Source: a virus. Taken from it: 64,000 nt of DNA. The stretch lies in the IMG/VR virus record IMGVR_UViG_3300021962_006679, positions 17,329 to 81,328 of that record. The stretch is one strand, 5' to 3'. Shown here one piece after another: positions 4,080-58,442 of the stretch; positions within the stretch are counted from its first letter, which is position 1, and every line of letters starts with the position of its first letter. Both the position numbers and the translations under genes were made by a program. Under the pieces are notes generated by a model, which was not told the origin of the DNA, did no database searches, and saw only the letters and a program-made list of their open reading frames with translations.

Positions 4080-4105
4080 CTTTTTTAACTTAATAGGCTT
4101 GTACT

Positions 4106-4309
4106 ATGGAAGATGTAGTAAAAGGTGAGTTAGGCGACCTTATGGACGATAACGATTGGGCTATTATCTTTGACAAAGAAGGTAATGTTAGAGGTCTTTT
4201 TATTCCTGACGGAATGCCTAATGGTGCAGTAGTTCCTGAAAACATTCTTAAAATTTTAGAAGAGGTTGGGATAGGTGAAGATGACTTTGCAGACCCTGTT
4301 GTGCACTGA
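4106..4309 (+). CDS. Small acidic hypothetical protein
   Basis: 67 residues, strongly acidic, with a core reading IIFDKEGNVRGLFIPDG. No family recognised; the composition suggests a small phage regulator or DNA mimic, but that is a guess. Its stop overlaps the start of the following secreted protein by 1 nt. Confidence 0.6.
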   Translation: MEDVVKGELGDLMDDNDWAIIFDKEGNVRGLFIPDGMPNGAVVPENILKILEEVGIGEDDFADPVVH

Positions 4310-4749: not shown

Positions 4750-4750
4750 G

Positions 4751-4778
4751 TTGACGCATTCATAAAATTTGCTATAAT
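4751..4778 (+). promoter_or_regulatory. Extended -10 sigma70-like promoter
   Basis: TTGACG (4751-4756), 16-bp spacer ending TGC, TATAAT (4773-4778). Transcription from here would run into the small genes at 4812 and 4987 and the tRNA-Ser/Gly cluster. Confidence 0.75.
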
Positions 4779-4811
4779 AGGTATATTGTTAAAAACAAAC
4801 ATGGAAGGACC

Positions 4812-4994
4812 ATGACGATGTTAGCGAATGATTTGGATTATGCAGCGAATGAGGCAATTCATGGCTTGCAACTTAACTGGAATGATGCAGTAAAGTTTGT
4901 TTGCCGTAATGCAAAAGTTGACCAGCGTGAGGCATCAAAAGCCCTAGAGTCTATTTTAACTGGTTACAAGCGGAAAGAATACGCAATTGACTAG
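4812..4994 (+). CDS. Small hypothetical protein
   Basis: 60 residues, helical, no recognised family. The Shine-Dalgarno (GGAAGGAC) is 4-6 nt before ATG 4812, directly downstream of a strong promoter, so early expression is likely. The last 8 nt overlap the next gene. Confidence 0.6.
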   Translation: MTMLANDLDYAANEAIHGLQLNWNDAVKFVCRNAKVDQREASKALESILTGYKRKEYAID

Positions 4995-5220
4995 TCTTGA
5001 TAATGTTATCAATGCACGGGTTGACTTTTTAGCCCGTGCAGTAATAGCAAAAATCGAAAGAATTTTAGACAAGCATGGAGATCTAGATAGATACGATGTC
5101 TATTGTGAATGGTATGAAGACGATGCTACAGAGGATGATATTGAAATATGGCTACGTGATCGCAGCGATGATAGCCGTATCGGTCCTCTTGATCTTGCGT
5201 CCATGATGAGTAAACAATAA
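4987..5220 (+). CDS. Small acidic hypothetical protein, TTG start
   Basis: 77 residues, acidic, predicted helical, no recognised family. No in-frame ATG exists near the 5' end; TTG at 4987, overlapping the upstream stop by 8 nt, is the best start and implies translational coupling. The gene ends 10 nt before tRNA-Ser. Confidence 0.55.
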   Translation: MTSLDNVINARVDFLARAVIAKIERILDKHGDLDRYDVYCEWYEDDATEDDIEIWLRDRSDDSRIGPLDLASMMSKQ

Positions 5221-5230
5221 GAGTTAAATT

Positions 5231-5322
5231 GGATGGTTACCCAAGAGGCTGAAGGGGCGGGATTGCTAATCCTGTAGGGCGGTTTTGCTGTCGCGAGAGT
5301 TCGAATCTCTCACCATCCGCCA
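5231..5322 (+). tRNA. tRNA-Ser (GCT)
   Basis: Class II tRNA with a long variable arm. Acceptor GGATGGT (5231-5237) pairs with ACCATCC (5312-5318), discriminator G, encoded CCA. The loop TTGCTAA gives anticodon GCT, which reads AGC/AGT, the Ser codons that appear preferred in this phage's genes. Confidence 0.95.
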
Positions 5323-5330
5323 TATTTTGA

Positions 5331-5405
5331 GCGGGCATCGTATAATGGCCATTACGTGGCGTTGCCAACGCTAGGATAGGAGTTCGATTCTCCTTGCCCG
5401 CTCCA
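5331..5405 (+). tRNA. tRNA-Gly (GCC)
   Basis: Acceptor GCGGGCA (5331-5337) pairs with TGCCCGC (5395-5401), discriminator T, encoded CCA. Anticodon loop TTGCCAA gives GCC. It lies 8 nt after tRNA-Ser. Confidence 0.95.
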
Positions 5406-5422
5406 AAAAAATTGGTTAGACT

Positions 5423-5430
5423 GCTAAATA
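5423..5430 (+). promoter_or_regulatory. T4-late-like promoter octamer
   Basis: GCTAAATA, 20 nt upstream of the HNH gene at 5451, leaving room for the Shine-Dalgarno (ATAGGAGG). Confidence 0.4.
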
Positions 5431-5450
5431 AAATATAGGAGGTCTAACCA

Positions 5451-5882
5451 ATGCCAAAGAGTAATTGTTTAAATTGTAATAAGGAAATTCATTACAATCC
5501 CAGCCAAAGAAGGGGATTATATTGTTCTAATGTTTGTCAACAAGAGTATCGTATAAACGAAGCAGTTGCCACTGGAACTTATACTAAAGCAAACGGATAT
5601 AGTTGGTTCAAGAAGAATACAAAATATGAATGTAGTTGTTGCGGCATAAGTGAATGGCAAGGTAAAGAACTTCGTTTACAGATAGATCATATTGACGGCA
5701 ACAATAAGAACAATGTAATAGAAAACTTTAGATACCTTTGTCCTAACTGTCATACACAGACAGAAACATGGGGTGTCAAAAGTGCTAGTGATGAAGGTAA
5801 ACAAAGAATTAAAGAGGCAGCCAAACTAGGGAGAGCAATACAACTTGGTAGGGTGCCAGAAGGAACAAAATTGGGGGTGTAG
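5451..5882 (+). CDS. HNH homing endonuclease inserted in tRNA cluster
   Basis: 143 residues. N-terminal zinc-ribbon-like cysteines (CLNCN then CSNVCQQEY), a second CSCC pair, then the HNH core QIDHIDGNNKNN and CPNCHTQTETWG: the layout of free-standing phage HNH homing nucleases. It has a strong Shine-Dalgarno (AGGAGG). It lies between tRNA-Gly and tRNA-Asp, and its last codons and stop (5880-5882) fall inside the tRNA-Asp acceptor/D-arm region, an overlap suggesting recent insertion next to a conserved tRNA target. Confidence 0.85.
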   Translation: MPKSNCLNCNKEIHYNPSQRRGLYCSNVCQQEYRINEAVATGTYTKANGYSWFKKNTKYECSCCGISEWQGKELRLQIDHIDGNNKNNVIENFRYLCPNCHTQTETWGVKSASDEGKQRIKEAAKLGRAIQLGRVPEGTKLGV

Positions 5883-5949
5883 CTCAGTTGGTCAGAGCGC
5901 GAGCCTGTCACGTTCGAGGTCGCGGGTTCGAGCCCCGTCACTCCCGCCA
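5873..5949 (+). tRNA. tRNA-Asp (GTC)
   Basis: Acceptor GGGGGTG (5873-5879) pairs with CACTCCC (5939-5945, one G-U), discriminator G, encoded CCA. The loop CTGTCAC gives anticodon GTC. The first 10 nt overlap the end of the HNH gene. Confidence 0.95.
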
Positions 5950-32186: not shown

Positions 32187-32798
32187 ATGCGAATTAAAGA
32201 AATTTTAGAAGCAGTAGCCCAGGGCACAATTCCCCCTCAAGCTCAAAGAAAAGTACCACAAGGCACTGGCGCAATGCCAGACGAGTTTGGCGCAAGAACT
32301 ATGGGTCAGGGCACAGAAGTTAGTGCTAGTGGTAGACAAACTACCTATAACAAGGATGGTTCCAGTGTTAACACTAGTGCACAAGGTCAGTTTACTAGAG
32401 ATAAACTTGGTCGTGTTACTCAGGTTCAAACTCCTCGTATAGCTGGTCTTCAACAAACAAACAAGTACGATCCGGGATCAATTGGCAATAAGCCTACTAG
32501 TCAGTCAACTAATTTTAATTATAAGTTGGGTAAAGCTGAAATAGACGCTACTATGCCTGGACCTGCTAGCCAGGCTGATATCAATAAAGCTACTGATATA
32601 AAAGTTAAGTATGGTAATGCTGGAATGCAAGCAACTAGAGGGCCTGATGGTAAACTTACTACTAGTACAAGTTATGATTTTGGGCCCAATAAAGTCTCTG
32701 CAAAAGACGATGGCAGTATTGACGTTCTTAATAAAAAAACAGGCCAAACTTATAAGACATCAACTGCCGCAATGGCGGCCGGTAAAGACGGAATTTAG
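32187..32798 (+). CDS. Hypothetical protein with capsid-targeting-like N-terminus
   Basis: 203 residues, G/Q/T/S-rich and probably disordered beyond the first 15 residues. The N-terminus MRIKEILEAV resembles those of a group of genes at 44-55 kb and the T4 internal-protein targeting peptide (MKTYQEFIAE). It may be packaged inside the capsid and trimmed after the E. No domain recognised. Confidence 0.55.
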   Translation: MRIKEILEAVAQGTIPPQAQRKVPQGTGAMPDEFGARTMGQGTEVSASGRQTTYNKDGSSVNTSAQGQFTRDKLGRVTQVQTPRIAGLQQTNKYDPGSIGNKPTSQSTNFNYKLGKAEIDATMPGPASQADINKATDIKVKYGNAGMQATRGPDGKLTTSTSYDFGPNKVSAKDDGSIDVLNKKTGQTYKTSTAAMAAGKDGI

Positions 32799-44069: not shown

Positions 44070-47024
44070 ATGAAAATAAATGAAGCAGTTCAGCAGGTTG
44101 TAGCCATATATCCTGGCAGATTTCACCCTTTCCATAAGGGTCACGCCAGCGTCTACAACTATCTTCGCAACAAGTTCGACACTGTTTTCATTGCTACAAG
44201 TGATAAAGTAGACCCGCCACGCAGTCCTTTTAGTTTTGCTGAAAAGCGAGAAATGATGATTGCTGCTGGTATTCCGCCCAGTGCTATTGTCCAAACTAAA
44301 AATCCTTATCAAGCACAAGAAATACTACAAGCATACGACCCAGCAACAACCGCAGTTGTGTTTGCTGTTAGCGAAAAGGATATGGCTGAAGATCCTAGAT
44401 TTAGTTTTGCTAATAAGAAAGACGGGTCCCCAAGTTATTTCCAGCCTATGGCGCCAAACGCAAAACAAATGCAGTCCTTTGACAAGCATGGTTATATTAC
44501 TACAGTGCCTACACTAGATTTTACTGTAGCAGGCGAACCCATGCGTAGTGCTACAGAGCTACGCCGCAACTTTGCAAATGCTGATCCCGAAACTCAAAAG
44601 ACAATGGTCAATGATTTGTATGGTGCGTATAATGATAGAGTTTACCAAATACTAAGCAGCAAACTTGCAGAAAGTTTAATGTTAGAAGACTATGCTAAAC
44701 TAACCAATATTATAAATCGTATCTGGCAACTAGACCTAGAACGTCCACTAAACGAAGAAGTTAAACGCAAAGTTCTAGCAAACATAAAGTTGGCTACAGA
44801 AGCCTGGAGCGAAAAGTACAAGCGTAGCATAAACTGCAACAATCCAAAAGGATTTAGCCAACGAGCTCATTGTCAGGGTCGCAAAAAGAACGAAGACATA
44901 AATGAAGCATTTGATAGTCCTTATCCACTGGAATGGCAAGTCGAAGCACCCAATGAGTATAGTGCTTGGGCAAAAATTCCTTTTCAAGGTGGCGATTTTA
45001 GCTGGTTAAATGTGGACTTTGATCAACCAACACAGGGCAATTTTGCTATTGAATTTACACTAGGCGGCAGAACCAAAGCATCAGGGAAAGGAGATGAGTT
45101 TAGGATTTTCGCTACTGTTATAGAAGCAATTAAGCAGTGGTGGAAAAAAATAGATCAACGATTTGTTGATAGCATATACTTTAGTGCATCAAAAGATCCT
45201 AACGACAGCGAACGCAGACATGTATTATATTCAAGATTTGCTAAACAACTTGCTAGCCAGATTGGTTATACACTTGACGTAACAGATAAAGGCAGATCAG
45301 TATCATTTCTTTTAACCGCACCAAAGAGAACGTATCAAGTTAAAGAAGAGAGCGGACCTGAGGTCACAATGTGGACTAACCCAGACTGGTTTGGTGCAGA
45401 TGTAGACACTGACTATTGGAATAAACAGCCTGTTAAAGTAATAGACATAGACAAGCTCGTCCCTTATGAACCAGAAGATAAGATGCAGGATCCCAAGTCT
45501 GCTGCTAATATGCAGGCTATTGCTAAAAGGATTCAAGCAGGCGAAAAGATAGATCCTATTGTTATCAGCAAACATGAAGGCAAATGGTTGATACTAGATG
45601 GGCATCATAGATACTTTGCTAGTAAATTAGCTGGTGCTAAAAAAGTAAGAGTGGTAGTAGTAGATCCTAAATATATCACATGGCGTGATGATGTGCCAGA
45701 TGAGGATTATTATAACGAAGTATTAGAGAACCAATACAGCGACCTGGAACTAGCAATCATGGAAGGCGGCCACAGTCTAGAAGAAGGTGTTGGGCGTGAT
45801 GTTGCTAACTGGGCAAAGAGACAGTATAGAAAAGTAGTACCCTTTACACAAGCAGATACAAAAGACATGATTGACAACATTGCTAAAGAAAAGGGTATAG
45901 ATCCTCGTGTTATGCAAGCAATGGCAGACAAAGAATCTTCTTATAATACTGGCGCAATTGGCGACAAGGGCAAGTCACATGGGTTATTCCAGTTACAAAA
46001 TATTGCAGTAAAAGACATCAATGACTGGTATAAAACAGATTATACTGACAGTGATAGAATGGATCCTGAGACCAATGCTCGTATGGCTGCTATGTATTTA
46101 CAATTAGCAAAAGACAAATACGGTGCTAAAAATGATGCGGAAGCTATCGCTATGTTTAATGGCGGACCCAAGGCCTTAACTAACCGAAATGCAATAAATT
46201 ATGCCAGAGATGTTGTAAGCAGAATGAAACGCAACCAACAACGAGTGGTTAGAGAAGCAGGCGTAGGCAAGATTACCAAACAAAATGCAACCAAAGACGC
46301 TCCTATTGGCAGCGAGTTTGCTAATGTTAAAAAGTTAGGTTTGGGTAGCGGCAAGCCACCTGAACTACACAAAAAGGCTCGTAAGAACAGCGACCCAAAT
46401 ACATTATTCAATATTGGATTGGCGGAAGGCAAAGAAGGCAGTTACCTACTACAACTAGAGCGTGACGATGATCTGCTAGTATTACACATTACACATAGCA
46501 GAACAGGCAAGCGCACCGAAGTGCGTGGCAAACCAGATTACGAGGGTGATGGATACGATCCCAATGATCAACTGCACCAATTGCTTGACAAGATTGGTAA
46601 GGCAGCAAGCATTAGCGACTTAATGAATGGCGAACTAGTAAGCATCAACCCTGTTCATCCACAGGGCCCAAGTGCTAAAGCACATGCTGAAAAAGCATTT
46701 GTAAGTGAGGACTTTGCTCAAGACCTAGAAGCAGAATTTCCTGGATTAGACTTAGATTTGTATACGACACGATCAGGTTACATATTGAGCAAGATTGTTC
46801 TTCCAGTAGGTGAACGCAACGAAGGCACTGGCAGCAAAGTAATGCAACGAATTGTTGACATGGCTGATCAGGAAGGAAAACTTATTGCACTAACACCTGA
46901 TACTGCATTTGGTGGCACAAAGAGTAGACTAATAAAGTTCTACAAGCGTTTTGGTTTTGTGCCCAACAAGGGACGCAACAAGACTTTTGATTTTAGAGAA
47001 ATAATGGTTCGCTATCCAAATTAA
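44070..47024 (+). CDS. Multi-domain putative internal virion polyprotein
   Basis: 984 residues. Residues 11-190: nucleotidyltransferase (GRFHPFHKGH, SATELRR). 256-272: Cys/basic motif (C-N-N-P-K-G-F...HCQGRK). 285-420: unassigned. 453-535: ParB/Srx-like domain (ILDGHHRY). 596-720: SLT lytic transglycosylase (ADKESSYN, catalytic E622). 785-870: unassigned. 895-975: GNAT-like acetyltransferase. N-terminus MKINEAVQQ resembles T4 capsid-targeting peptides, and possible gp21-type sites (L/I-x-E) lie between domains near 200-206, 279, 564-572 and 786. A packaged, cleaved, injected protein is inferred. Confidence 0.7.
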   Translation: MKINEAVQQVVAIYPGRFHPFHKGHASVYNYLRNKFDTVFIATSDKVDPPRSPFSFAEKREMMIAAGIPPSAIVQTKNPYQAQEILQAYDPATTAVVFAVSEKDMAEDPRFSFANKKDGSPSYFQPMAPNAKQMQSFDKHGYITTVPTLDFTVAGEPMRSATELRRNFANADPETQKTMVNDLYGAYNDRVYQILSSKLAESLMLEDYAKLTNIINRIWQLDLERPLNEEVKRKVLANIKLATEAWSEKYKRSINCNNPKGFSQRAHCQGRKKNEDINEAFDSPYPLEWQVEAPNEYSAWAKIPFQGGDFSWLNVDFDQPTQGNFAIEFTLGGRTKASGKGDEFRIFATVIEAIKQWWKKIDQRFVDSIYFSASKDPNDSERRHVLYSRFAKQLASQIGYTLDVTDKGRSVSFLLTAPKRTYQVKEESGPEVTMWTNPDWFGADVDTDYWNKQPVKVIDIDKLVPYEPEDKMQDPKSAANMQAIAKRIQAGEKIDPIVISKHEGKWLILDGHHRYFASKLAGAKKVRVVVVDPKYITWRDDVPDEDYYNEVLENQYSDLELAIMEGGHSLEEGVGRDVANWAKRQYRKVVPFTQADTKDMIDNIAKEKGIDPRVMQAMADKESSYNTGAIGDKGKSHGLFQLQNIAVKDINDWYKTDYTDSDRMDPETNARMAAMYLQLAKDKYGAKNDAEAIAMFNGGPKALTNRNAINYARDVVSRMKRNQQRVVREAGVGKITKQNATKDAPIGSEFANVKKLGLGSGKPPELHKKARKNSDPNTLFNIGLAEGKEGSYLLQLERDDDLLVLHITHSRTGKRTEVRGKPDYEGDGYDPNDQLHQLLDKIGKAASISDLMNGELVSINPVHPQGPSAKAHAEKAFVSEDFAQDLEAEFPGLDLDLYTTRSGYILSKIVLPVGERNEGTGSKVMQRIVDMADQEGKLIALTPDTAFGGTKSRLIKFYKRFGFVPNKGRNKTFDFREIMVRYPN

Positions 47025-47039: not shown

Positions 47040-48038
47040 ATGAAAAAAACATTGTTAATTACATTTGGTTGTAGTTGGGTCTACGGCGTTGGCGTTAATT
47101 ATGAAGAAGGCATGTCCCGGGAAGATTATCAGCTGAATGCGTGGAATCCTGAACTATGTGATGAATACAGTTTTAGAGGTTTAATTAAAAAAAATTTAAA
47201 TATTGATACTAAGAATTTTTCCTTAGGTGGCAGTAGCAATCAAATGCAATTTAGAGAGGCAAAACAATATTTTTTCTCTCAACAATTTATAGACCACAAA
47301 GATAGTTACGATAACATTATTGTTTTATGGGGTATTACCTCAACTGCCAGAAATGAGTTTTATTCTGTAGAGGACAAAACATTCCTAAACGTCCTTTACA
47401 ATACATTTTTTGATAAATTTGACCCACTTGCTAAAAGCATAACGAAAAAAAATTATGACCTTATAAAACGTCCTAACTGGCCTTCGTGGGAAGATTATAA
47501 TAATCTTAACCTAGACAATATTGATTTAGAAACTTTAAAACAAATTGTTATATCTGAAAAATTACATTTACGAGATATGCAAAAATCTACTACTTTTAGA
47601 CATCTGTTGGAACACATATTAGGAAAATTTTCCTGGGACGTGGATGCAGCAATATATGAACTTTCGCTAGAGATTAAACTTTTTAATAGTTTTTTCGAAA
47701 GTAGTAACATAAAATTTTTATGGTATGATTTGTTTAATCACCATGATTATAAAAAAAGTTTTAAAAAATTTGTTGATCCAAGGGCAGAGTGGTTCGAACT
47801 AAAAAATTTTTTACAGTATGATAACAAATCAAGAGACATATTATCCTTAATATTAAAAAATAATAATAGTTTTGTAAAGGACATAGCATATCATTTATCT
47901 GAGTGGAAAGATGACAATAAAAAAATAAATATGGGTGTAAAGAAAAAGTTATTAAATCCAATTAGTTTTCATCCTACTAAATTGGGGCACGTAGAGATAG
48001 CAAAAGTCTTACAACCAGAAATAGAAAGGTTTGTTTGA
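47040..48038 (+). CDS. SGNH-hydrolase-like protein (copy 5)
   Basis: 332 residues, the longest of the five. Block I FGCSWVYGVG (S12), SLGGSSNQMQF as the Gly/Asn block, and C-terminal SFHPTKLGHVEIA supplying His. Very AT-rich compared with the preceding gene, which may point to a separate origin. Shine-Dalgarno is weak (AGAGA). Confidence 0.65.
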   Translation: MKKTLLITFGCSWVYGVGVNYEEGMSREDYQLNAWNPELCDEYSFRGLIKKNLNIDTKNFSLGGSSNQMQFREAKQYFFSQQFIDHKDSYDNIIVLWGITSTARNEFYSVEDKTFLNVLYNTFFDKFDPLAKSITKKNYDLIKRPNWPSWEDYNNLNLDNIDLETLKQIVISEKLHLRDMQKSTTFRHLLEHILGKFSWDVDAAIYELSLEIKLFNSFFESSNIKFLWYDLFNHHDYKKSFKKFVDPRAEWFELKNFLQYDNKSRDILSLILKNNNSFVKDIAYHLSEWKDDNKKINMGVKKKLLNPISFHPTKLGHVEIAKVLQPEIERFV

Positions 48039-48523
48039 TGTCCAAAGAAAAAGATGTAATAATACACTTTGTACGATTCTGCAAAGACCAACTAAAATTG
48101 CCTACAGTGCCCAAAATTATTATTAAAGACAAAATTGACGACACAACATTTGGCCAATACAATACGCTAAAGAAAGACATTAGTATACGCACTGGCGACA
48201 GACATATTATGGATGTCTTGAGAACCCTAGCACACGAGCTAGTGCACCATGGCCAGAGACTAATTACACCAGACCTAGATGGAAGCGATGGAAGCGCACA
48301 TGAAAATCAAGCCAATGCTATCGCTGGAGTATTACTTCGTAAATATGGTGAGGACAATCCCAAACTCTACGAACATCTAGAAGAAAGAGCAAGCATAGGA
48401 GTACCATTAAGTAGTGGACTTACGGTAACTATTGCGCCACACAGAGCTCTGAAAGTTAAAAAATCCACACCGGGGAGGCATAGCTATGGAAACCCTAAAC
48501 CTAAAAGAAAAAATTCTAAATGA
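48038..48523 (+). CDS. Zinc metallopeptidase (HExxH)
   Basis: 161 residues from ATG 48038 (TGATG overlap with the SGNH stop). LAHELVHHGQ carries HExxH near residue 67 and an E/H downstream (SAHENQANA) completes a gluzincin-like site. Short phage metallopeptidases of this kind are common in marine T4-like phages; substrate unknown. Basic C-terminal tail. Confidence 0.75.
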   Translation: MSKEKDVIIHFVRFCKDQLKLPTVPKIIIKDKIDDTTFGQYNTLKKDISIRTGDRHIMDVLRTLAHELVHHGQRLITPDLDGSDGSAHENQANAIAGVLLRKYGEDNPKLYEHLEERASIGVPLSSGLTVTIAPHRALKVKKSTPGRHSYGNPKPKRKNSK

Positions 48524-48809: not shown

Positions 48810-49072
48810 TGAAACTAGAGTGTGAGATATTAACAGAAGACTATAGTAACACCCCTGCTTACAGGGTATTTGTTAATGGCGAGCTAATGACTGAACGTGA
48901 TTATGTTGTACCACCAGGCGAAGTAGGACATTACAATTTTATGTGTTACTTAACTTTGCCCGGTGGTGAAAATAAACTTGAAATTCAAGGAATAGGTCAT
49001 AAGTTTAATATAGGCACGATGTGGTTAGATGACAAACAAATAGCTCACAACCAAGGAGTATTTCAGATATGA
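48809..49072 (+). CDS. Small hypothetical beta-rich protein
   Basis: 87 residues. YRVFVNGELMTERDYVV and a C-terminal KLEIQGIGHKFN strand pattern. Its first half is comparable to the proteins at 2759 and 43596 (RV-x-V-N/D-x-x-L). Coupled to both neighbours by 1-4 nt overlaps. Confidence 0.5.
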   Translation: MKLECEILTEDYSNTPAYRVFVNGELMTERDYVVPPGEVGHYNFMCYLTLPGGENKLEIQGIGHKFNIGTMWLDDKQIAHNQGVFQI

Positions 49073-49275
49073 GAATAGACGAATTATTAGAAACAGCAAG
49101 CGCAGGTGCTACAAGCAGCGGCAATATTGCCACTGTGGCAAACCCTACAGTTGCTAGAGGCAAAGGCAAACCAAAAATGCAAAAACCTACTGATAATGCT
49201 CTGGATATGGATGCTAATTTGTTTAGTGGCGGTGCTATTAAGAGAAACACTTCAAAGCCATTAGGTGCTTTGTAG
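49069..49275 (+). CDS. Small protein with capsid-targeting-like N-terminus
   Basis: 68 residues, Ala/Gly/Thr-rich and disordered-looking. N-terminus MRIDELLETA resembles the T4 internal-protein targeting peptide, with a possible gp21-type cleavage after LLE. No other feature. Confidence 0.5.
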   Translation: MRIDELLETASAGATSSGNIATVANPTVARGKGKPKMQKPTDNALDMDANLFSGGAIKRNTSKPLGAL

Positions 49276-49283
49276 CATAAATA
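49276..49283 (+). promoter_or_regulatory. T4-late-like promoter octamer
   Basis: CATAAATA overlapping the upstream stop region, 27 nt before ATG 49311, which has Shine-Dalgarno AAAGG. It would drive the row of capsid-targeting-like genes. Confidence 0.5.
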
Positions 49284-49310
49284 CATATATAATCTTTTAA
49301 AGGTACAACT

Positions 49311-50405
49311 ATGAGATTCCGCGATTTTAAACCAGTTGTTAAAGAGAGCAAAACTCCAGAGCAAATTAAACTTGACTACTGTAGAGGGCTTATTACAAAA
49401 GAAGACGCGGTTTCTAGTCTTAAAAAGTTAGCGGAAGAAACTGACGCTGAAAAAGAATTTAATGCAGCATTTGATAAAGAATACAAAAAAGCATTTGGCG
49501 ACAAAAAGCCAGCACAATCTAAAAGAGAGCCTGAAAAATTTGGTGGTCTCGGAAGCCAGCAAGCATACGACGAATATAAACAAGATTTAGAAAAAAGACA
49601 AGCATCTATGCTTATGCGCCGTGCCAAACCAGGCGACGCAATGGATCCTTGGGATCCAGATGATGGTAATGTATATAAAGACGAAACAACATGGCATTTA
49701 GATCCGAATTTTTCAGGATCACCAGGCGACTTTGAGCAACCTTGGATGAAAGTAAACACAAAATATACAGTAGGCCCAGATGGTCGTATAGATTTTGGGC
49801 AGCGTAAACCCTACAAAGACGACAGACCTCCTCAATACCAAGAATTATCAGATAAAGAATGGGCTGCATTTAAAAAATCTCAACTAAGAGTAGATTATCC
49901 AAATACTCCTAATGACAAATTGCCATGGTACTTAAGAAAGGACGATCCAGATTTTGTACCATATATGAGCGGCAAAAAACCATCAGGTGGTGATGCAGAT
50001 CCAGCTGGTATGACTGGTGCTACTGCCGCTGGTACTCCATCAAGGGGTGGTGATGCAGATCCAGGCGGTATGACTGGTGCTGATGCTGCTGGTACTCCAG
50101 CAAAACCATCAGGCAAAGGACCTAACTTACAAACTAATTTAGGTAGAAGTAGAACTGACAAATCAAATCAGTCTGACGATACTGGGCCAGATGATAAAGA
50201 AGCAGCCCGTATTGCAAAAAGATCAGAAAAAAGACAAGCAGCGAAACAAGATAGTTTAGACGACTTGAGTTTTGGCAACGCATTTAAAAGAGCCCGTAAA
50301 GCACATGGCGGCGCCGGCGGCATATTTACTTGGCGTGGTAGAAGATACCAAACAAATATAAAAGGCGAACGATATGTTAAGAATCCAACGCCGGTACAAA
50401 TATAA
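49311..50405 (+). CDS. Hypothetical internal-protein candidate with tandem repeat
   Basis: 364 residues, low complexity. N-terminus MRFRDFKPVVKES resembles the capsid-targeting group. Contains a 2x18-residue tandem repeat (GGDADPxGMTGAxAAGTP, DNA at 49986-50099) and a basic C-terminal domain (GGIFTWRGRRYQTNIKGERY). Probably packaged or scaffold-associated; no enzymatic domain recognised. Confidence 0.55.
   Translation: MRFRDFKPVVKESKTPEQIKLDYCRGLITKEDAVSSLKKLAEETDAEKEFNAAFDKEYKKAFGDKKPAQSKREPEKFGGLGSQQAYDEYKQDLEKRQASMLMRRAKPGDAMDPWDPDDGNVYKDETTWHLDPNFSGSPGDFEQPWMKVNTKYTVGPDGRIDFGQRKPYKDDRPPQYQELSDKEWAAFKKSQLRVDYPNTPNDKLPWYLRKDDPDFVPYMSGKKPSGGDADPAGMTGATAAGTPSRGGDADPGGMTGADAAGTPAKPSGKGPNLQTNLGRSRTDKSNQSDDTGPDDKEAARIAKRSEKRQAAKQDSLDDLSFGNAFKRARKAHGGAGGIFTWRGRRYQTNIKGERYVKNPTPVQI
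49986..50099 (+). repeat. Two 54-bp in-frame tandem repeats
   Basis: Units 49986-50039 and 50046-50099 (60-bp period), nearly identical, both starting GGTGGTGATGCAGATCCAG and ending GGTACTCCA. They lie within the low-complexity part of the 49311 gene. Confidence 0.9.
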
Positions 50406-50417
50406 CTAGGAAAAAAC

Positions 50418-50963
50418 ATGAAAGACATACTTAACAAACTTGATAAAATCTTAAATGAAGGCATGCTAGGCGACATGGCACATGCCTGTGAAGCAGATCA
50501 TGAAGTTCAGATGGCTCGTGCAGATCTTTTCAAGATTGCAAAGTATGCTATTAAACTACATGACATGATGAAAAATGTTAGCGAAATGGAAGGCATCCAG
50601 GGCTGGCAGCAAGCAAAGATTACAAAGGCTGCTGATTATTTAAGCAGCGTTTATCACAATTTAGACTATGAAATGAGTCCACTTAACCAAGCTCCAGAAG
50701 GTTCAGACACTGATGAAGTTATGGCACAGATGGCTTATGATCTTGCCGCTGATGATGAAATTGAAGAAGATAAAGTTCCATTGCCACCAAAGCGTCCAGA
50801 ACCAAAGGCAGCGTCATACACTGATGCACAGAGAAAATCAATGGACGATGCAGTAGACGTAATTACAAAGTCAGCAGAAGAAGAAGATGCAAAAAAGCGT
50901 AGAAACGAATCTACAGACTTAGGTAGAGCAACTAGAAAATTCAGCGATTGGGGAAAAAGATGA
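50418..50963 (+). CDS. Hypothetical protein, capsid-targeting-like group
   Basis: 181 residues. Starts MKDILNKLDKILNEG (possible cleavage after ILNE). A helical core (about 20-90) is followed by an acidic, Pro-rich, disordered C-terminus. Similar proteins occur in marine T4-like phages. It overlaps the next gene by 4 nt. Confidence 0.55.
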   Translation: MKDILNKLDKILNEGMLGDMAHACEADHEVQMARADLFKIAKYAIKLHDMMKNVSEMEGIQGWQQAKITKAADYLSSVYHNLDYEMSPLNQAPEGSDTDEVMAQMAYDLAADDEIEEDKVPLPPKRPEPKAASYTDAQRKSMDDAVDVITKSAEEEDAKKRRNESTDLGRATRKFSDWGKR

Positions 50964-51478
50964 ACGACTTTACAAGCCTAGTTAAAAAACTAAACGAGAT
51001 TAGTGACAGAGCAGAAGTTACTACAATTAATGAAAGTGTAGAACAGCCTGTAGCACGAACATCTAGTGATGTGAAGTCAACAGCAAAAATCCTACGCAAG
51101 TTTAGTGAAATTGAATCTGAAATCGTTGCTGAAGAAGCTCAAGCAAAAGAAGATGTTACTAGCGATATCAGCAATCGTTTTAGAGAGTTTATGAAAAGCG
51201 AAGTTGGTCAGGGTAATGACCTTGAATCAGTAAACACTGCTGTTCACGAAGCCCACACAACTGCAACTATTTTATCAGGAAGCATAGGTGTACTAGCTGA
51301 CAGTTTAAAGCGTCAACTAGAAGCTACAAAAGAAGGTGGCGTATTACAACGCATGGTAGAACGTGAAGGTGGCGATACAACTCACATTGCAAAGGCATAC
51401 GAAGCTCTCCAATTGGCCGCAGAGGCTCTTGACGCAGCACATATGTATGCAGTAAAATTAGACGACCAAAAGAAGTAG
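50960..51478 (+). CDS. Hypothetical helical protein, capsid-targeting-like group
   Basis: 172 residues from ATG 50960 (an in-frame TTG lies 12 nt upstream). Starts MNDFTSLVKKLNEIS. Almost entirely alpha-helical with acidic surface, resembling prohead-core-like proteins, but no family recognised. Confidence 0.5.
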   Translation: MNDFTSLVKKLNEISDRAEVTTINESVEQPVARTSSDVKSTAKILRKFSEIESEIVAEEAQAKEDVTSDISNRFREFMKSEVGQGNDLESVNTAVHEAHTTATILSGSIGVLADSLKRQLEATKEGGVLQRMVEREGGDTTHIAKAYEALQLAAEALDAAHMYAVKLDDQKK

Positions 51479-51488
51479 AGAAAAAATT

Positions 51489-52142
51489 ATGAGAGCATTT
51501 GAGTTTACCAACGAACAAACAAAAGTTGCCCCGTTAACCAGAGTTGCACCACTCACTAGAGTTGCTCCTGGTACCCGTGTTACAGGAAGTGAACCTAGTA
51601 GATGGGCAAAAAGTATGGGTAGCGATGCTGCTGCTAATGAAAAGAAACGAGCAGAAATATTAGCTCGTATGGAACGAGAACGCCCTGATTTCGAAAGAGC
51701 TGTACAAGGTCTGTCTGATACAGAATTAGCTGCTGCCAGAGAAAAGTATGCACAAAGTTTAGGACTAAGAAATGCACAGGCTATGATAAACCTAGCAACA
51801 GGTTATGAAGCAGGCACAGGACAAATTAATCCAGATTACGACAAAGAACTACAAGCAAACAAAGCAGCCAATACTCAGGATATGACACAATATGGTGCTG
51901 CCAGAAGAGGTAACGCAAGTGTGCAATCTCCTTTTATAAGTTCACAACCTAAAAAGGCTGAGCCTGCACCTACACCAGCAGCACCTACACCTGCTCCGAA
52001 AGCAGATGCAGATGATAACCAAGGCCAATCTCAGGTTGATGCTGTTGCTAAACAAGGACGTTCACAAGTTAATGCTGTTGCCAAATCAGGCATGGATGCT
52101 GTAAATGCATTAATGAGGAACGCTGGTTTAAGAGTAAGATAA
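51489..52142 (+). CDS. Hypothetical low-complexity internal-protein candidate
   Basis: 217 residues. N-terminus MRAFEFTNEQTK, then three 6-residue repeats (VAPLTR, VAPLTR, VAPGTR; DNA 51525-51578) whose codons differ, indicating selection on the peptide. A helical middle and Ala/Pro-rich and SQVxAVAK-repeat C-terminus follow. Coupled to the next gene (TAATG). Confidence 0.55.
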   Translation: MRAFEFTNEQTKVAPLTRVAPLTRVAPGTRVTGSEPSRWAKSMGSDAAANEKKRAEILARMERERPDFERAVQGLSDTELAAAREKYAQSLGLRNAQAMINLATGYEAGTGQINPDYDKELQANKAANTQDMTQYGAARRGNASVQSPFISSQPKKAEPAPTPAAPTPAPKADADDNQGQSQVDAVAKQGRSQVNAVAKSGMDAVNALMRNAGLRVR

Positions 52143-52333
52143 TGCGAGCAAAAGAGTTTCAACCTAAAGCATTGACTGAAGCAGAATTTGACGAAGCAGC
52201 AGGTGAAAAGGATGCTTGCTATCGTAAAGTTAAAGCTCGTTACAAAGTATGGCCCAGTGCATATGCTAGTGGTGCTCTAGTAAAGTGTCGCAAAGTGGGT
52301 GCTGCCAACTGGGGAAACAAGAGTAAAAAGTAA
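52142..52333 (+). CDS. Small basic DUF5872-like protein
   Basis: 63 residues. N-terminus MRAKEFQPKALTEAEF resembles the capsid-targeting group; the body (CYRKVKARYKVWPSAYASGA, then LVKCRKVGAANW) is a conserved Cys/basic motif seen in many phage proteins. Possibly packaged with DNA. Overlaps both neighbours by 1 nt. Confidence 0.65.
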   Translation: MRAKEFQPKALTEAEFDEAAGEKDACYRKVKARYKVWPSAYASGALVKCRKVGAANWGNKSKK

Positions 52334-52587
52334 TGCTTATTACAGAAGTAGTACAAGAGGATCTACGAAAATGGTTCAAAGAGAAATGGGTTCGCTTTGG
52401 TCCTGACGGTAAGATACGTGGAGATTGTGCTAGAGGTAGTGAAAGCGAAGGTAAGCCTAAATGTTTGCCACAAAAGAAAGCACACGCATTAGGTAAAAAA
52501 GGGCGCAAGACGGCAGCAAGTCGTAAACGCAGGGAAGATCCCGATAAAAACAGACGCGGCAAAGCAAAAAACGTCGCTACAAAGTAG
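52333..52587 (+). CDS. Small basic conserved phage protein
   Basis: 84 residues. N-terminus MLITEVVQED; body FGPDGKIRGDCARGS, KPKCLPQKKAHALG, ASRKRREDPDKNRRGKAKN is a strongly conserved basic domain in marine T4-like phages. Related in composition to residues 256-272 of the 984-residue protein. DNA or RNA binding likely by charge. Confidence 0.65.
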   Translation: MLITEVVQEDLRKWFKEKWVRFGPDGKIRGDCARGSESEGKPKCLPQKKAHALGKKGRKTAASRKRREDPDKNRRGKAKNVATK

Positions 52588-52596
52588 AAATAAACT

Positions 52597-53502
52597 ATGC
52601 TATTTTTAAATTACGCTGAGTTTTATTTAACCAACGTATGTAATTTGTCATGTCCAGGCTGTAACAGGTTTAACAGTTTTAATTTTAAAGGGCATCAACG
52701 TTGGTCAGATTTAAAAGACACTTATACTAAATGGGCTAAAGTTTTACACCTAGGCAATTTTGGGATTTTGGGCGGAGAACCATTACTAAATCCTAATTTT
52801 ATGGATTGGTTAATTGGAACAACTGACTTATGGCCCAAATCAACATGTAGGTTAACTACAAATGGTTTTAGACTTAATAAAGTCAAAGGCTTGTACGATG
52901 TATTAAAAAGTCGTCCTAAAATTCAAATGTCAGTTGGTATTCATAATAAAATGCACAAGCGGGAAATAATGAATATTTTAGAAGAATTCCTTGCTGGGCC
53001 GCTTAAAATAGAACACGATAATTCTAATAAATATCAGCAAAAGTTGTATATCACCGATTCTAATGATGTAAAAGTTAGAGTAGAATATAATTGGTGGTTT
53101 CATCAGGGAGCAATCATTCCTAACGATCAAGGAAAGTTAACTTTGCATAACAGTGATCCAGATAAAGCGCATAGTATTTGCCACAGTTCAGAATGTCATC
53201 ATTTTGCATATGGCAAATTATACAAATGCGGCGCCAGTGCGCTGTTTTCAGAGTTTGACGAACAGATAGGTTTAGAACTAGATTCTAAAGATAGAGAATT
53301 AATTAATAATGTAAATTCATTATCAGTGGATGACGATTTAGAAACACAAAAACTGTTTATAGAAAATATAAAAAACCCTATACCACAATGTAAATTTTGT
53401 CCTGAAGTTTATATTGGAGATCAAATTTTTGCCTTAAAGAAAAAGGATATATTGGCCCAGCAACGAGAGAGTACAAATGAGATTTTCCGAGTTAACACAT
53501 AA
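52597..53502 (+). CDS. Radical SAM/SPASM-like protein
   Basis: 301 residues. Cluster motif CNLSCPGCNRF (CxxxCxxC, about residues 16-23), GGEP motif (ILGGEPLL), and C-terminal extra cysteines (CHSSECHHF, CGAS, CKFC) suggesting a SPASM/twitch auxiliary cluster. Third radical SAM protein of the window; much more AT-rich than the flanking structural-type genes, hinting at separate acquisition. Substrate unknown. Confidence 0.78.
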   Translation: MLFLNYAEFYLTNVCNLSCPGCNRFNSFNFKGHQRWSDLKDTYTKWAKVLHLGNFGILGGEPLLNPNFMDWLIGTTDLWPKSTCRLTTNGFRLNKVKGLYDVLKSRPKIQMSVGIHNKMHKREIMNILEEFLAGPLKIEHDNSNKYQQKLYITDSNDVKVRVEYNWWFHQGAIIPNDQGKLTLHNSDPDKAHSICHSSECHHFAYGKLYKCGASALFSEFDEQIGLELDSKDRELINNVNSLSVDDDLETQKLFIENIKNPIPQCKFCPEVYIGDQIFALKKKDILAQQRESTNEIFRVNT

Positions 53503-54034
53503 ACCTACACCAGTAGAATTAGCAATTAAAGAACATATTGCAAGAGGCGTTCCTTTTAGCGAATGCATGTTTCGTCCAGGTAGTAAAGCGTTTACAGAGT
53601 TCTATAACACCCTAAGAGAAATGCGTGATACTCTAGAGTTAGATTGGCAGGATCAGGAACTACTTGATACAGATATTGGCGAATGTGTTGTTATTGAAGG
53701 TGAACGTGTTCCTCTTGATGTTCCTATTGAAGAAGAAGTTGAACTTGATGAAGCAGAATATCAGGGCAAGCAAGTTAAACTTAATTCTCCAAAGCGTGGC
53801 GGAAGCAAAAAGTTCTATGTATATGTAAAGAACCCAAAGACTGATCGTGTTAAAAAAATTAGTTGGGGTGACACAACGGGCCTAAGTGTAAAGGCCAAAA
53901 ACCGCGGCGCAGTTCGTAGTTTTGTTGCACGACATAAATGTATGCAAGCCAATGACAAACTTACTGCAAGATACTGGAGTTGCCGCACACCACGCTATAA
54001 AGCACTTGGTGTTAAAGGCGGAGCTTGGTGGTGA
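53477..54034 (+). CDS. Conserved virion-associated protein, capsid-targeting-like group
   Basis: 185 residues. N-terminus MRFSELTHKP. The C-terminal domain (KKFYVYVKNPKTDRVKKISWGD, then SFVARHKC and ARYWSCRT) is conserved across marine T4-like phages, often at the ends of capsid or prohead-core-associated proteins. Overlaps radical SAM by 26 nt. Confidence 0.65.
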   Translation: MRFSELTHKPTPVELAIKEHIARGVPFSECMFRPGSKAFTEFYNTLREMRDTLELDWQDQELLDTDIGECVVIEGERVPLDVPIEEEVELDEAEYQGKQVKLNSPKRGGSKKFYVYVKNPKTDRVKKISWGDTTGLSVKAKNRGAVRSFVARHKCMQANDKLTARYWSCRTPRYKALGVKGGAWW

Positions 54035-54294
54035 GCCCTTATACAGAGTCCCGCAAAGACAATGTAATTACAAGAAAATTTTCCCCTAGCGTTGACAGTG
54101 ACGAACTTGTCTGGCACAGAGACAGGCGTGACCGTAGCATTACTATAGTTGAAGGTACTGACTGGAAACTACAAATGGATAATGAACTTCCAGTAACATT
54201 AAAGCCTGGTGATAGTTTTAATATACCCAAAAACACCTATCACAGAGTAATAAAAGGCACATCTGACCTTGTTGTTACAATACGAGAACACTAG
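54031..54294 (+). CDS. Small cupin-fold protein
   Basis: 87 residues from GTG 54031 (7 nt after GGAG, overlapping the upstream stop). Cupin-like second motif: LKPGDSFNIPKNTYHRV with the metal-type H; the first motif is weak (WHRDRRDRSITIVEG). Could bind a sugar or metal. Minimal single-domain cupin; function unknown. Confidence 0.65.
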   Translation: MSPYTESRKDNVITRKFSPSVDSDELVWHRDRRDRSITIVEGTDWKLQMDNELPVTLKPGDSFNIPKNTYHRVIKGTSDLVVTIREH

Positions 54295-54301
54295 ATAAAT
54301 A
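54294..54301 (+). promoter_or_regulatory. T4-late-like promoter octamer
   Basis: GATAAATA overlapping the cupin stop codon, 22 nt before the gene at 54324. Confidence 0.45.
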
Positions 54302-54323
54302 TCATATATTTGCGGGAATTGCT

Positions 54324-54917
54324 ATGAGAGACCTTATTGACAGATTAAAACTAATCGAAAATTTAGAAAAAGGCGTACAGCCAGACTTTCACTTTATGAT
54401 ATTAGAGGATGGCGAAATCTTTATAATGGAAGGTGATGCAGAAATACAAGCAGTTGTTGATGCAATTAGATCACTAGCAAAGACAGGTGAAGGTAGACAA
54501 ATTTCTCAAAATGTATTTGGTAAAGACCCAGATGATGTAACAGATGAAGAAATTTTCAACACACTAATTGCTCCAGGTTATCAAGCATTAAAGCCATTTA
54601 CTGGAATGATGAAACAAGGTTTAGACTCAGTACCTAGTGGCTACACCCCAAGTCAGATAGCAAAAGCTGGCACAACTCCTTTTGTTGGAGGCTTTGTACG
54701 AGACCAGATCAGAAAACAGATACCTAACCAGAAAGTTGATACAGGCCCAAATAATCTAGGAACAGTAGACATTGATGCTAGTGATCGTGATATTGAACGT
54801 GTATTACAAGCCTATAACAAATTGGGTAATACATTTCCTAAAGCAAAAGACATGTTAGACCAAAAAGATGTTGATGGTGCACTAAGGCAAGTTTACTCAA
54901 GAATGAAAGCAGACTAA
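54324..54917 (+). CDS. Hypothetical protein, capsid-targeting-like group
   Basis: 197 residues. N-terminus MRDLIDRLKLIENLEKG with potential L-I-E cleavage. Helical; no enzymatic motif. Shares one base with the next gene (TAATG). Confidence 0.5.
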   Translation: MRDLIDRLKLIENLEKGVQPDFHFMILEDGEIFIMEGDAEIQAVVDAIRSLAKTGEGRQISQNVFGKDPDDVTDEEIFNTLIAPGYQALKPFTGMMKQGLDSVPSGYTPSQIAKAGTTPFVGGFVRDQIRKQIPNQKVDTGPNNLGTVDIDASDRDIERVLQAYNKLGNTFPKAKDMLDQKDVDGALRQVYSRMKAD

Positions 54918-55234
54918 TGACTAGCTTAAGAAGAATTATAGATATTGTTGAACGTGCAGGCATGGAGTATGTTGCTAACCGTGACTTTACACTTGTAGCA
55001 AAAACTGTTAAGGATGATGTAACATATGCCTTAGGCAGAGTTGATCATGATTACGATGACAACCGCAAAGCTGATTATAGCATTTATAAGTTAGTACGAA
55101 CAGGTGGTTACGAATTCAAGGGTACCTTTTATCCTCAAGATTTCTACACAGAAGTGGAAAGTCTAGACCTAAGTCCATATGTAAAACCAACTGAAGCACA
55201 CAAAGCATTTAAATCCTGGGTAGAGCAACACTAA
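54917..55234 (+). CDS. Hypothetical protein
   Basis: 105 residues, starting MTSLRRIIDIVERAG (a possible further member of the targeting-peptide group). Mixed alpha/beta, no family recognised. Last gene before an early-type promoter. Confidence 0.5.
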   Translation: MTSLRRIIDIVERAGMEYVANRDFTLVAKTVKDDVTYALGRVDHDYDDNRKADYSIYKLVRTGGYEFKGTFYPQDFYTEVESLDLSPYVKPTEAHKAFKSWVEQH

Positions 55235-55237
55235 CGG

Positions 55238-55266
55238 TTGACACATTAGCACTAGAGTAGTATAAT
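55238..55266 (+). promoter_or_regulatory. Consensus sigma70-like promoter for dsbA
   Basis: Consensus TTGACA (55238-55243), 17-bp spacer, consensus TATAAT (55261-55266); the best promoter in the window. Drives dsbA and probably gp43. Confidence 0.88.
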
Positions 55267-55790: not shown

Positions 55791-58442
55791 ATGTACGTTG
55801 ACGCTTATTTTGATAGAGAACATGACAGGATCAATGTTGTAGAACGTGTAAACGGCAGGAGAGAATATCGTGAATTTCCTGTCAACTACATCTTTTATTA
55901 CAACGATCCACGTGGCAAGCATCAGACTATCTATGGCAACAGAGTAAGCAGATTTAGTACCAGAAACGGTAAAGAGTTCCAGAAGGAACTTAAAATACAC
56001 GGCAATCATGGCCTTTGGGAAAGTGATATCAATCCAGTATTTCGTTGTTTAGCAGAGAACTATCTGGGCGTTGATGCTCCTAAACTACAAACAGCGTTTT
56101 TTGATATTGAGGTTGACTTTGACCCAGAACGTGGCTACAGTTCGCCGGATGATCCGTTTAACGCAATTACAGCAATTACAGTGTACATGGACTGGCTAGG
56201 ACAACTAGTCACACTTGCTATTCCTCCCAAGAGCATGAGTATGGAAACTGCAAAGGAAACTGTTGCAGAGTTTGATAACATGTTCTTGTTTGATAGAGAA
56301 GATAGGCTGCTAGAAGCATTCCTGGATCTCATAGAGGATGCGGATATCCTAAGTGGTTGGAACAGTGAGGGTTATGATATTCCCTACACAGTAAATCGTA
56401 TCACTAGAGTACTGAGCAAGGACGATACTAGGCGTTTTTGTTTATGGGGTCAACTGCCCAAGCAACGCACATTTGAGCGTTTTGGCAAAGAAGATAGTAC
56501 ATACGATATTATCGGCAGACAGCACTTGGATTACATGCAGTTGTATCGCAAGTACACCTATCATGAAATGCACAGTTACAGTTTGGATGCCATTGGCGAG
56601 TATGAACTTAATGAGCGTAAGGTTGCATATGAGGGCACACTGGACCAACTATACAACCAGGACTTTTACACATTTATTGACTATAACAGACAGGACACTA
56701 TGCTCCTGTACAAACTGGATCAAAAGTTAAAGTTTATTGATCTAGCAAACGAACTTGCTCATGCAAACACAGTGCTACTACCTACTACAATGGGCGCGGT
56801 TGCTGTTACAGAACAAGCAATTATTAACCACGCTCATGAGCAAGGGCTTGTTGTGCCCAACAAGAAAAAGCCAGACGAAGAACATAACAAAGCAGCAGGT
56901 GCGTATGTTGCAAAGCCCAAAGTAGGACTACATGACTGGATAGGCAGTATTGACTTGAACAGTCTGTATCCTAGTGTTATTAGGGCACTAAACATGGCAC
57001 CAGAAACCATTGTAGGACAACTGCGCCCTATCATAACTAACCAAGCCATACAAACAATCTTATCCCAGAAGGGCACATTTAGTGATGCTTGGGACGGCGA
57101 GTTTGGTAGCAAAGAATACCAAGCAGTTATGAACATGGAGGTGGGCACTGAAATTACTATTGACTGGGAAAGTGGTGACAGTGACACACTTAGCGCAGCA
57201 GATGTATGGCGTCTAGTTTTTGATAGTAACAACCCCTGGATACTAAGCGCAAACGGTACTATCCTAACCTATGAAAAGAAGGGCATTGTTCCTGGATTGC
57301 TTGAACGCTGGTACGCAGAGCGTAAAGAACTACAAGCAAAGATGCGCGGTGCTGAAGGTGAAGAACGAGCGTTCTGGGACAAGCGACAACTTGTTAAGAA
57401 GATTAACTTGAACAGTTTGTATGGTGCTATCCTTAATCCATACTGCCGCTTCTTTGACCATCGCATTGGACAGTCCACTACACTTACTGGCAGATGTATT
57501 GCCAAGCACATGAGTGCACAGGTAAACAAACTGCTAACTGACAAGTATGATCACTTGGGTGATTGTGTTATATATGGTGACACAGATAGTGTGTACTTTA
57601 GTGCTTGGCCAGTTATTAAAGAGCAAGTAGACGCTGGTAAGATGAAGTGGGGAAAGGATGAATGCATCGCACTCTATGACCAACTTGGTGAAGCAGTAAA
57701 CGAAACCTTTGCTGGTTTTATGGAACGGGCATTCCATTGTCCAAGAAGCTATGGCGAGATTGTTGCAGCAGCAAGAGAAATTGTAGCACTTAAAGGTTTG
57801 TTTATTACAAAGAAGCGTTATGCTGCACTTGTAATTGATACTGAAGGTTACCGCAGTGATACAGATGGCAAGCCCGGTAAAGTAAAAGCAATGGGATTGG
57901 ATCTCAAGCGCAGCGACACACCCAAATACATGCAGGACTTTTTAAGTGAACTGCTACTGGATGTGCTTACAGGTAAAGATAGCGAACATGTCGTAGAGCG
58001 TATTAAAGACTTCAAGTATCAGTTCAAGGACAAGCCAGGCTGGGAAAAGGGTACACCCAAGCGTGTAAACAACCTAACTATGTACACTGCACGAGAACGA
58101 GCAGAGGGCAAGGCTAATATGCCCGGGCATGTTAGAGCAGCAATGAACTGGAACTACTTACGGGCACTACACAATGATAACTACAGTCAACAAATTGTTG
58201 ATGGAATGAAGACCATTGTATGCAAACTTAAAGACAATCCACTGGGCTACACAAGCGTGGGCTATCCCACAGACGAAACCACACTTCCTAAATGGTTCAA
58301 GGAACTGCCCTTTGATGATGGCGCAATGGAAGATGCTATCGTGGACCAGAAGATCGATAACCTTCTCAGTGAACTAAACTGGAATCTTAAAGAAAAGACA
58401 CAAACTAAAAATACTTTTGACAGTTTATTCTCATTTGAGTAA
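55791..58442 (+). CDS. 43: Family-B DNA polymerase (gp43)
   Basis: 883 residues (T4: 898). Exonuclease sites FFDIEVDFD (Exo I), SGWNSEGYDIPY (Exo II) and DYNRQDTML (Exo III); polymerase motif A DLNSLYPSVIR, motif B KKINLNSLYGAI, motif C YGDTDSVYFS. C-terminal tail ends FDSLFSFE, like the clamp-binding peptide of T4 gp43, so it should bind gp45. Main replicative polymerase with proofreading. Downstream, a late-like octamer starts the next gene. Confidence 0.98.
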   Translation: MYVDAYFDREHDRINVVERVNGRREYREFPVNYIFYYNDPRGKHQTIYGNRVSRFSTRNGKEFQKELKIHGNHGLWESDINPVFRCLAENYLGVDAPKLQTAFFDIEVDFDPERGYSSPDDPFNAITAITVYMDWLGQLVTLAIPPKSMSMETAKETVAEFDNMFLFDREDRLLEAFLDLIEDADILSGWNSEGYDIPYTVNRITRVLSKDDTRRFCLWGQLPKQRTFERFGKEDSTYDIIGRQHLDYMQLYRKYTYHEMHSYSLDAIGEYELNERKVAYEGTLDQLYNQDFYTFIDYNRQDTMLLYKLDQKLKFIDLANELAHANTVLLPTTMGAVAVTEQAIINHAHEQGLVVPNKKKPDEEHNKAAGAYVAKPKVGLHDWIGSIDLNSLYPSVIRALNMAPETIVGQLRPIITNQAIQTILSQKGTFSDAWDGEFGSKEYQAVMNMEVGTEITIDWESGDSDTLSAADVWRLVFDSNNPWILSANGTILTYEKKGIVPGLLERWYAERKELQAKMRGAEGEERAFWDKRQLVKKINLNSLYGAILNPYCRFFDHRIGQSTTLTGRCIAKHMSAQVNKLLTDKYDHLGDCVIYGDTDSVYFSAWPVIKEQVDAGKMKWGKDECIALYDQLGEAVNETFAGFMERAFHCPRSYGEIVAAAREIVALKGLFITKKRYAALVIDTEGYRSDTDGKPGKVKAMGLDLKRSDTPKYMQDFLSELLLDVLTGKDSEHVVERIKDFKYQFKDKPGWEKGTPKRVNNLTMYTARERAEGKANMPGHVRAAMNWNYLRALHNDNYSQQIVDGMKTIVCKLKDNPLGYTSVGYPTDETTLPKWFKELPFDDGAMEDAIVDQKIDNLLSELNWNLKEKTQTKNTFDSLFSFE

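Follow-up and report, generated by a model that had tools for sequence, protein, structure and literature searches.

Short N-terminal sequences on unrelated proteins of an IMG/VR phage contig resemble T4 capsid-targeting sequences, one of them ahead of a capsid-arm mimic

In phage T4, the internal proteins IPI, IPII, and IPIII and the protein Alt (which begins MELITELFDED) carry a short N-terminal capsid-targeting sequence (CTS) that is cut at I/L-x-E by the S77 protease gp21 and is exchangeable between unrelated bodies. Within the 10-residue T4 tag (MKTYQEFIAE), targeting depends on residues 4 and 7, and processing on residues 8 and 10 (PMC9026906). In the phiKZ-like phage SPN3US, N-terminal propeptides have been proposed to target ejection proteins and are removed by the prohead protease (PMC5694885). 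Here, we analyzed a 64,000-nucleotide window from a marine giant phage (positions 17329 to 81328 of the 81,328-base IMG/VR phage contig IMGVR_UViG_3300021962_006679) in which a row of genes, named below by their first position, begins with a similar tag. The first-pass annotation had read this tag as a T4-like sorting signal, and its reading was supported by profile and unsupervised searches, by a random-start comparison, and by protease co-occurrence in relatives. We consider it likely that the shared N-termini are CTSs of the T4 type, with gene 49069 a special member that also carries a copy of a region of the major capsid protein (MCP). The likeness to T4 lies in a short, exchangeable N-terminal tag, an I/L-x-E cut predicted for part of the set, and an S77 protease, here present in most relatives with head genes; in contrast to T4, the tags have 8 to 9 residues (M[RK]xx[ED][FLI]) and mark a larger, enzyme-rich set of candidate packaged proteins. 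Whereas phiKZ-like propeptides mostly exceed 100 residues and end in an AxE-type cut, the tags here are 8 to 10 residues long with L/I-x-E ends, and none had the long A-x-E form.

All 10 open reading frames (ORFs) that had been listed as starting with the tag were found at their coordinates, and most of the list held. Six match M[RK]xx[ED][LFI] strictly (32187 MRIKEI, 49069 MRIDEL, 49311 MRFRDF, 51489 MRAFEF, 52142 MRAKEF, and 53477 MRFSEL), and two fit more loosely (52333 MLITEV and 44070 MKINEA, whose orthologues begin MRIHEA and MRISEA). The remaining two, 50418 (MKDILNKL) and 54324 (MRDLIDRL), do not fit; they are doubtful members of the tagged set, and the list needs pruning. The features are as follows.

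49069 to 49275, plus strand: gene with tag and MCP N-arm mimic, 68 amino acids (aa) (phrog_17311)
49069 to 49092, plus strand: its tag MRIDELLE, with a predicted protease cut after E8 (L-L-E fits the T4 gp21 rule)
49311 to 50405, plus strand: tagged protein MRFRDFKPVVKES, 364 aa, uncharacterized body; strict tag, weak cut motif VVKE at residues 8 to 11
50418 to 50963, plus strand: gene of the row whose N-terminus differs, MKDILNKLDKILNEG; doubtful membership, conserved in relatives
50960 to 51478, plus strand: row member MNDFTSLVKKLNEIS, not a tag; own-family conserved start M.DF..LV.KLN.I
51489 to 52142, plus strand: tagged protein MRAFEFTNE, 217 aa, uncharacterized body; strict tag
52142 to 52333, plus strand: tagged small basic protein MRAKEFQPKALTE with CYRKVK domain (phrog_727, 3.9e-25)
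52333 to 52587, plus strand: tag variant MLITEVVQE with basic domain DLRKWFKEKWVRFG; tagged orthologues have the same body
52597 to 53502, plus strand: untagged gene within the row, radical-SAM-like (CNLSCPGC, motif by eye only)
53477 to 54034, plus strand: tag MRFSELTHKP with the C-terminal domain of phrog_7595; no hydrophobic-x-E cut near the tag
54324 to 54917, plus strand: row member MRDLIDRLKLIENLE, no tag match by N-terminus comparison
32187 to 32798, plus strand: separate tagged gene, MRIKEILE/AVAQG (predicted cut after E), 203 aa; strict tag, L-x-E type end
44070 to 47024, plus strand: loosely tagged (MKINEA) multidomain protein, 984 aa, with Pfam, PHROG, and DarB-like matches

The body of 49311 had no Pfam or PHROG match, and neither 51489 nor 32187 had a family match or a homologue in the loci fetched from relatives.

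The DNA polymerase of the window (55791 to 58442) groups it with many related contigs, mostly from uncultured phages; among named phages, Sinorhizobium phage Phosso, a Vibrio phage, and Agrobacterium phage Atu_ph07 have the closest polymerases. Below, G001 to G008 denote long contigs from this group. Gene starts were predicted with a simple caller, which picked a later start for 32187, and this gene was therefore left out of the counts. Across the row (49060 to 55240), M[RK]xx[ED][LFI] fits 5 of 12 genes, compared to none of the 118 genes on the rest of the contig (Fisher P = 2.8 × 10−6); this P value is optimistic because the pattern was chosen on the same genes, and independent replication therefore weighs more. 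The tag was enriched over internal-methionine starts in G001, G002, G003, G004, and Atu_ph07. We also ran an unsupervised search by expectation-maximization (EM), fitting an anchored mixture model to dereplicated N-termini with no prior knowledge of the pattern. The motif re-emerged as M-R-[LAY]-x-[ED]-[IFL]-[LI]-x-E in the marine set (751 dereplicated families from five contigs, including the window's; log-likelihood ratio 154 versus 122.6 as the highest shuffled value), and Atu_ph07 yielded a similar motif of the M[KR]Lx[ED]LLE type (137.7 versus 119.7); values for T4, P-SSM2, and RaK2 were near the null. With one representative per body family, 32 of 1,010 were tagged versus 7.8 expected under independence (about fourfold), and the true arrangement of the pattern was the best among 60 position permutations. 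Such N-termini might instead reflect translation initiation or codon bias after ATG, and AAA and AGA occur most often as the second codon in tagged representatives. This explanation is extremely improbable, given that the acid at position 5 is encoded by GAA, GAG, GAC, and GAT, R2 also by CGT and CGA, and the L, F, or I at position 6 by TTT, ATA, ATT, TTA, ATC, TTG, and CTG, and that E8 of the 49069 family keeps its identity at a variable distance from the initial methionine.

The bodies behind the tags had been called unrelated, and indeed pairwise BLASTP among window proteins gave nothing better than an E value of 0.02. The same body also recurs behind different tags: the DLRKWFKxKWVRFG body (52333 type) was found behind MLITEVVQE, MRVHEFTTNE, MRAHEFINE, and MRADEFITE; the C-terminal domain of 53477 also behind MRANEFILE, MRASDFITE, MRASEFITE, MRASDFIVE, and others; and the CYRKVK domain of 52142 also behind MRSSEFIS, MRFTEIIE, MRADEFITE, MRINELFE, and MRFSQFVTE. 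Unrelated proteins share a short N-terminal stretch that contains hydrophobic targeting residues. Tagged bodies in relatives are effector-like (deaminase, GP88, amidoligase, and nucleotidyltransferase), and a zeta-toxin-type kinase domain is present in Atu_ph07 gp53. If the row consisted of diverged duplicates, the shared N-termini would be ordinary homology. Duplication is real in the Atu_ph07 row gp53 to gp63, where the bodies are paralogous, and several tagged proteins of G004 are also alike; however, the window bodies lack mutual similarity and 32 tagged families are left after clustering by body, so that we regard duplication as a very improbable source of the tags.

The annotation had also noted a glutamate shortly after a hydrophobic residue, and this feature stood for part of the set: hydrophobic-x-E ends at residues 7 to 11 in 15 of 32 tagged families versus 112 of 978 others (P = 1.2 × 10−6). 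In the window, an (L/I)-x-E tag end is present in 49069, 32187, and 52333. When hand-picked examples were anchored on the cut, I, L, or V stood at −2 in T4, cyanophage, marine, and Atu_ph07 tags, and F at −3 in T4 and cyanophage tags and in many marine ones. A gp21-like protease co-occurs with the tags in most relatives that have head genes. An S77 protease is present in 6 of 9 records (G001, G002, G003, G005, G006, and Atu_ph07) and also in T4, P-SSM2, RaK2, and Phosso; among the small-gene contigs, it is present in exactly the three holding an MCP.

The protein of gene 49069 comprises the tag (residues 1 to 8), the MCP N-arm mimic TASAGATSSGNIATVANP (residues 9 to 26), a basic stretch, and a conserved NALD..F..IKR tail. 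Across the predicted cut it reads MRIDELLE, then TASAGATSSGNIATV, and this cut aligns with the ends of the MCP propeptides, for which the predicted cuts are ...LME then NATAGATSSGNVAV in Atu_ph07, ...LFE then SATAGATTAGNIAS in RaK2, and ...LAE then NASGGATQAGNVAT in G001. In an alignment of 18 relatives, E8 is invariant despite variable tag length, as are A10, G13, T15, G18, N19, A21, and V23. The family has 161 relatives in viral (marine) contigs. A phage database search with 49069 (E ≤ 10) returned only 12 records, all weak (E 2 to 9), of which nine lie at annotated major capsid or head genes and three are hypothetical proteins. Among the genomes and polymerase loci searched, a regular expression for the element had no matches other than MCPs, 49069-like small proteins, and the C-terminal end of Atu_ph07 gp53. 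The window mimic scores 50 to 73 against jumbo MCP arms and ≤24 against T4-group arms. Because 49069 carries the MCP region that follows the MCP's maturation cut, it probably shares a protease or a capsid docking site with the MCP N-arm. In five marine contigs (L286, L287, L310, L318, and L327), the 49069-type mimic forms the C-terminal end of a longer ORF, like many Straboviridae gp61.1 proteins.

To find further mimics, we ranked the proteins of each genome by their match to that genome's MCP arm and compared the score with the shuffled-arm maximum. The top matches (shuffled maximum in parentheses) were T4 gp61.1 at 77 (51), a RaK2 51-aa ORF at 54 (42), Atu_ph07 gp53 at 57 (45), and G002 126299 at 50 (44). 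Searching with whole gp23 retrieved gp61.1 homologues in five Straboviridae (E 6e-6 to 2e-4), with matches spanning gp23 residues 61 to 110, mostly 62 to 100, and beginning at 61 to 63, just before the E65 cut; a PDB search with gp61.1 returned gp23 residues 58 to 94 as its top match (E 0.0067). T4 gp61.1, which the papers found to use that name list only as hypothetical, belongs to phrog_1823/2086, and its cyanophage counterpart T4-GC 426 to phrog_696. T4-GC 426, beside gp61, opens MINESPTMSAGTGGFSGSSAATGPVAGFDPVL and scores 105 (shuffled maximum, 41) against the S-SRM01 MCP arm SEASPTNSAGTGGFGGSAANTTGSPVAGFDPVL; a full-length cyanophage MCP search found the mimic in S-CAM9 and none in P-SSM2, S-SM2, or S-SRM01. 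The RaK2 ORF (NC_019526, 120706 to 120861; L244) is unannotated, lies near gp41, and adjoins virion structural genes. Mimics score higher against MCP arms of their own group (T4 group, 61 to 106 own and ≤35 across; jumbo group, 42 to 77 own and ≤45 across); this comparison left out the G009, G011, and G014 mimic rows, for which the wrong gene had been picked, and used a partial Ah1 MCP arm.

By sequence, 49069 looks like gp61.1 and T4-GC 426 in design, a resemblance that we do not put forward as orthology: each reproduces the MCP N-arm of its own lineage, in most cases after a predicted cut at E, and continues into a basic stretch. They differ in setting, since gp61.1 and T4-GC 426 lie beside gp61/gp41 in T4 and cyanophages, whereas 49069 belongs to the tagged row, upstream of the DNA polymerase, and is not adjacent to primase gp61 or helicase gp41; in many Straboviridae, moreover, the segment is at the C-terminal end of a longer protein. 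The RaK2 ORF shares with 49069 its PHROG (phrog_17311) and the MCP-arm mimic but has a very short pre-cut part (MKKTINE), and RaK2 lacks general tag enrichment. For 49069 and gp61.1, the MCP-like segment could be a functionless piece of MCP, vestigial or there by chance, as other small ORFs (G001, Phosso, and Ah1) carry a different MCP segment and the cyanophage form is named "major head protein" in NCBI and PHROGs, apparently because of the short mimic. We think this rather unlikely: the mimic is kept next to gp61/gp41 in Straboviridae, near gp41 in RaK2, beside gp61 in cyanophages S-CAM9, Syn19, P-SSM7, S-SM1, and ACG-2014d, and throughout the marine contigs counted above, and mimics resemble MCP arms from their own group. 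The chances are about even, in our judgment, that gp61.1, T4-GC 426, the RaK2 ORF, and the 49069 family represent a dedicated small head gene of the T4 superfamily, one that pairs a copy of its own MCP's N-arm beyond the cut with a basic stretch, often preceded by a tag, and whose product, freed by gp21, serves inside the head as a capsid-arm decoy or as a linker between DNA and capsid. The protein of phrog_696 (e.g., S-SM1, 152805 to 153353) is a separate one of 180 to 275 aa. The different MCP segment, VILPVIRRVMP..GVQPM, occurs in small proteins of G001 (160311 to 160631; E 6.7e-4), Phosso (182277 to 182405; E 4e-6), and Ah1 (97034 to 97135; E 8.7e-4).

Virion data exist for homologues. Purified S-SM1 virions contained T4-GC190 (PMC3037559). 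The S-SM1 protein is a tagged cytidylyltransferase that starts MKKFSAFLNE, with A after the cut, and P-SSM2 T4-GC190 has the tag MKSFSQFLTE, both with the same spacing as the T4 tag. Window protein 44070 and T4-GC190 both match phrog_395; by pairwise alignment, the 44070 nucleotidyltransferase matches T4-GC190 only at the superfamily level (scores of 56 and 45 versus 53 to 54 for shuffled sequences). For Atu_ph07, mass spectrometry assigned 29 virion proteins, only two of them predicted, to CDS 31 to 76 at the cluster level (PMC6102473), and the tagged row gp53 to gp63 falls inside this range. The tag could alternatively be a docking or sorting signal for a non-head target such as a membrane, a replication compartment, a chaperone, or another protease: the evidence for the window clade is sequence only, and a short helix, modeled at residues 3 to 12 of 49069 with low confidence (predicted local distance difference test, 55), could bind many partners. 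The match to T4 CTSs, the MCP propeptide-like cut sites, the MCP mimicry, the protease co-occurrence, and the virion-detected tagged T4-GC190 make such a target unlikely.

Several results nevertheless weigh against a CTS function. About half of the tagged families have no hydrophobic-x-E near residues 7 to 11, and 53477 has none at all. No S77 match was found on the window's own 81-kb fragment, from which head genes are absent, or on the 213-kb contig of G004, which has an MCP and tags. P-SSM2 and RaK2 showed no enrichment by these patterns in the internal-methionine comparison or the EM search, although P-SSM2 has a few longer MKSF.QFL.E tags. The MCP-arm search gave nothing above noise in G001, G003, G004, and P-SSM2, and its top match in G005 is a long, probably unrelated protein. 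Finally, packaging of the window phage's own proteins is inferred, and the Atu_ph07 detections are resolved to the cluster and not to single tagged proteins.

If the tags are CTSs, the 8- to 10-residue tag would dock each protein to the prohead core during head assembly, and a gp21-type S77 protease would then cut after hydrophobic-x-E; for these steps we draw on T4 genetics and on homologues. The freed enzymes and small basic proteins would remain with the DNA and be delivered into the next host. Once cut, the MCP-like arm of 49069 may occupy MCP N-arm sites or guide the protease while its basic part meets DNA. Targeting, cutting, and injection in the window phage, like docking by the mimic, are presumptive. 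A readable targeting code would allow host-delivered phage proteins, including counter-defense candidates, to be listed from genomes of marine jumbo phages never grown, and the capsid-arm mimic offers T4 gp61.1 and its counterparts a concrete candidate role and gives a fresh approach to cargo selection by the prohead protease and capsid.

The largest listed protein, 44070, combines several conflict-type domains, as polyvalent or DarB-like injected proteins do: an HxGH nucleotidyltransferase (PF01467, 5.5e-8; phrog_395, 7.9e-8), a ParB-like domain (under the Pfam cut-off), an SLT transglycosylase (PF01464, 1.7e-13), and a DarB-like/PLxRFG-like C-terminus, with a further match to phrog_10691 (8e-30). 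It differs from DarB-like proteins in its tag-like start, and DarB is far longer. An HELVH metallopeptidase-like protein of the window (48038 to 48523) is untagged, and a similar HELVH protein in G001 (104141 to 104824) begins MRARDFLNE. In Atu_ph07 (NC_042013, 39484 to 50592 and 304780), paralogous tagged proteins have LYRG(M/I) and (N)EIMISG-like motifs; their ADP-ribosyltransferase look (LYRGM/NEIMISG, by eye) was unconfirmed by Pfam or PDB sequence search and stays at the motif level. The left end of the window (412 to 5949) contains five tRNA genes (Glu, Thr, Ser, Gly, and Asp).

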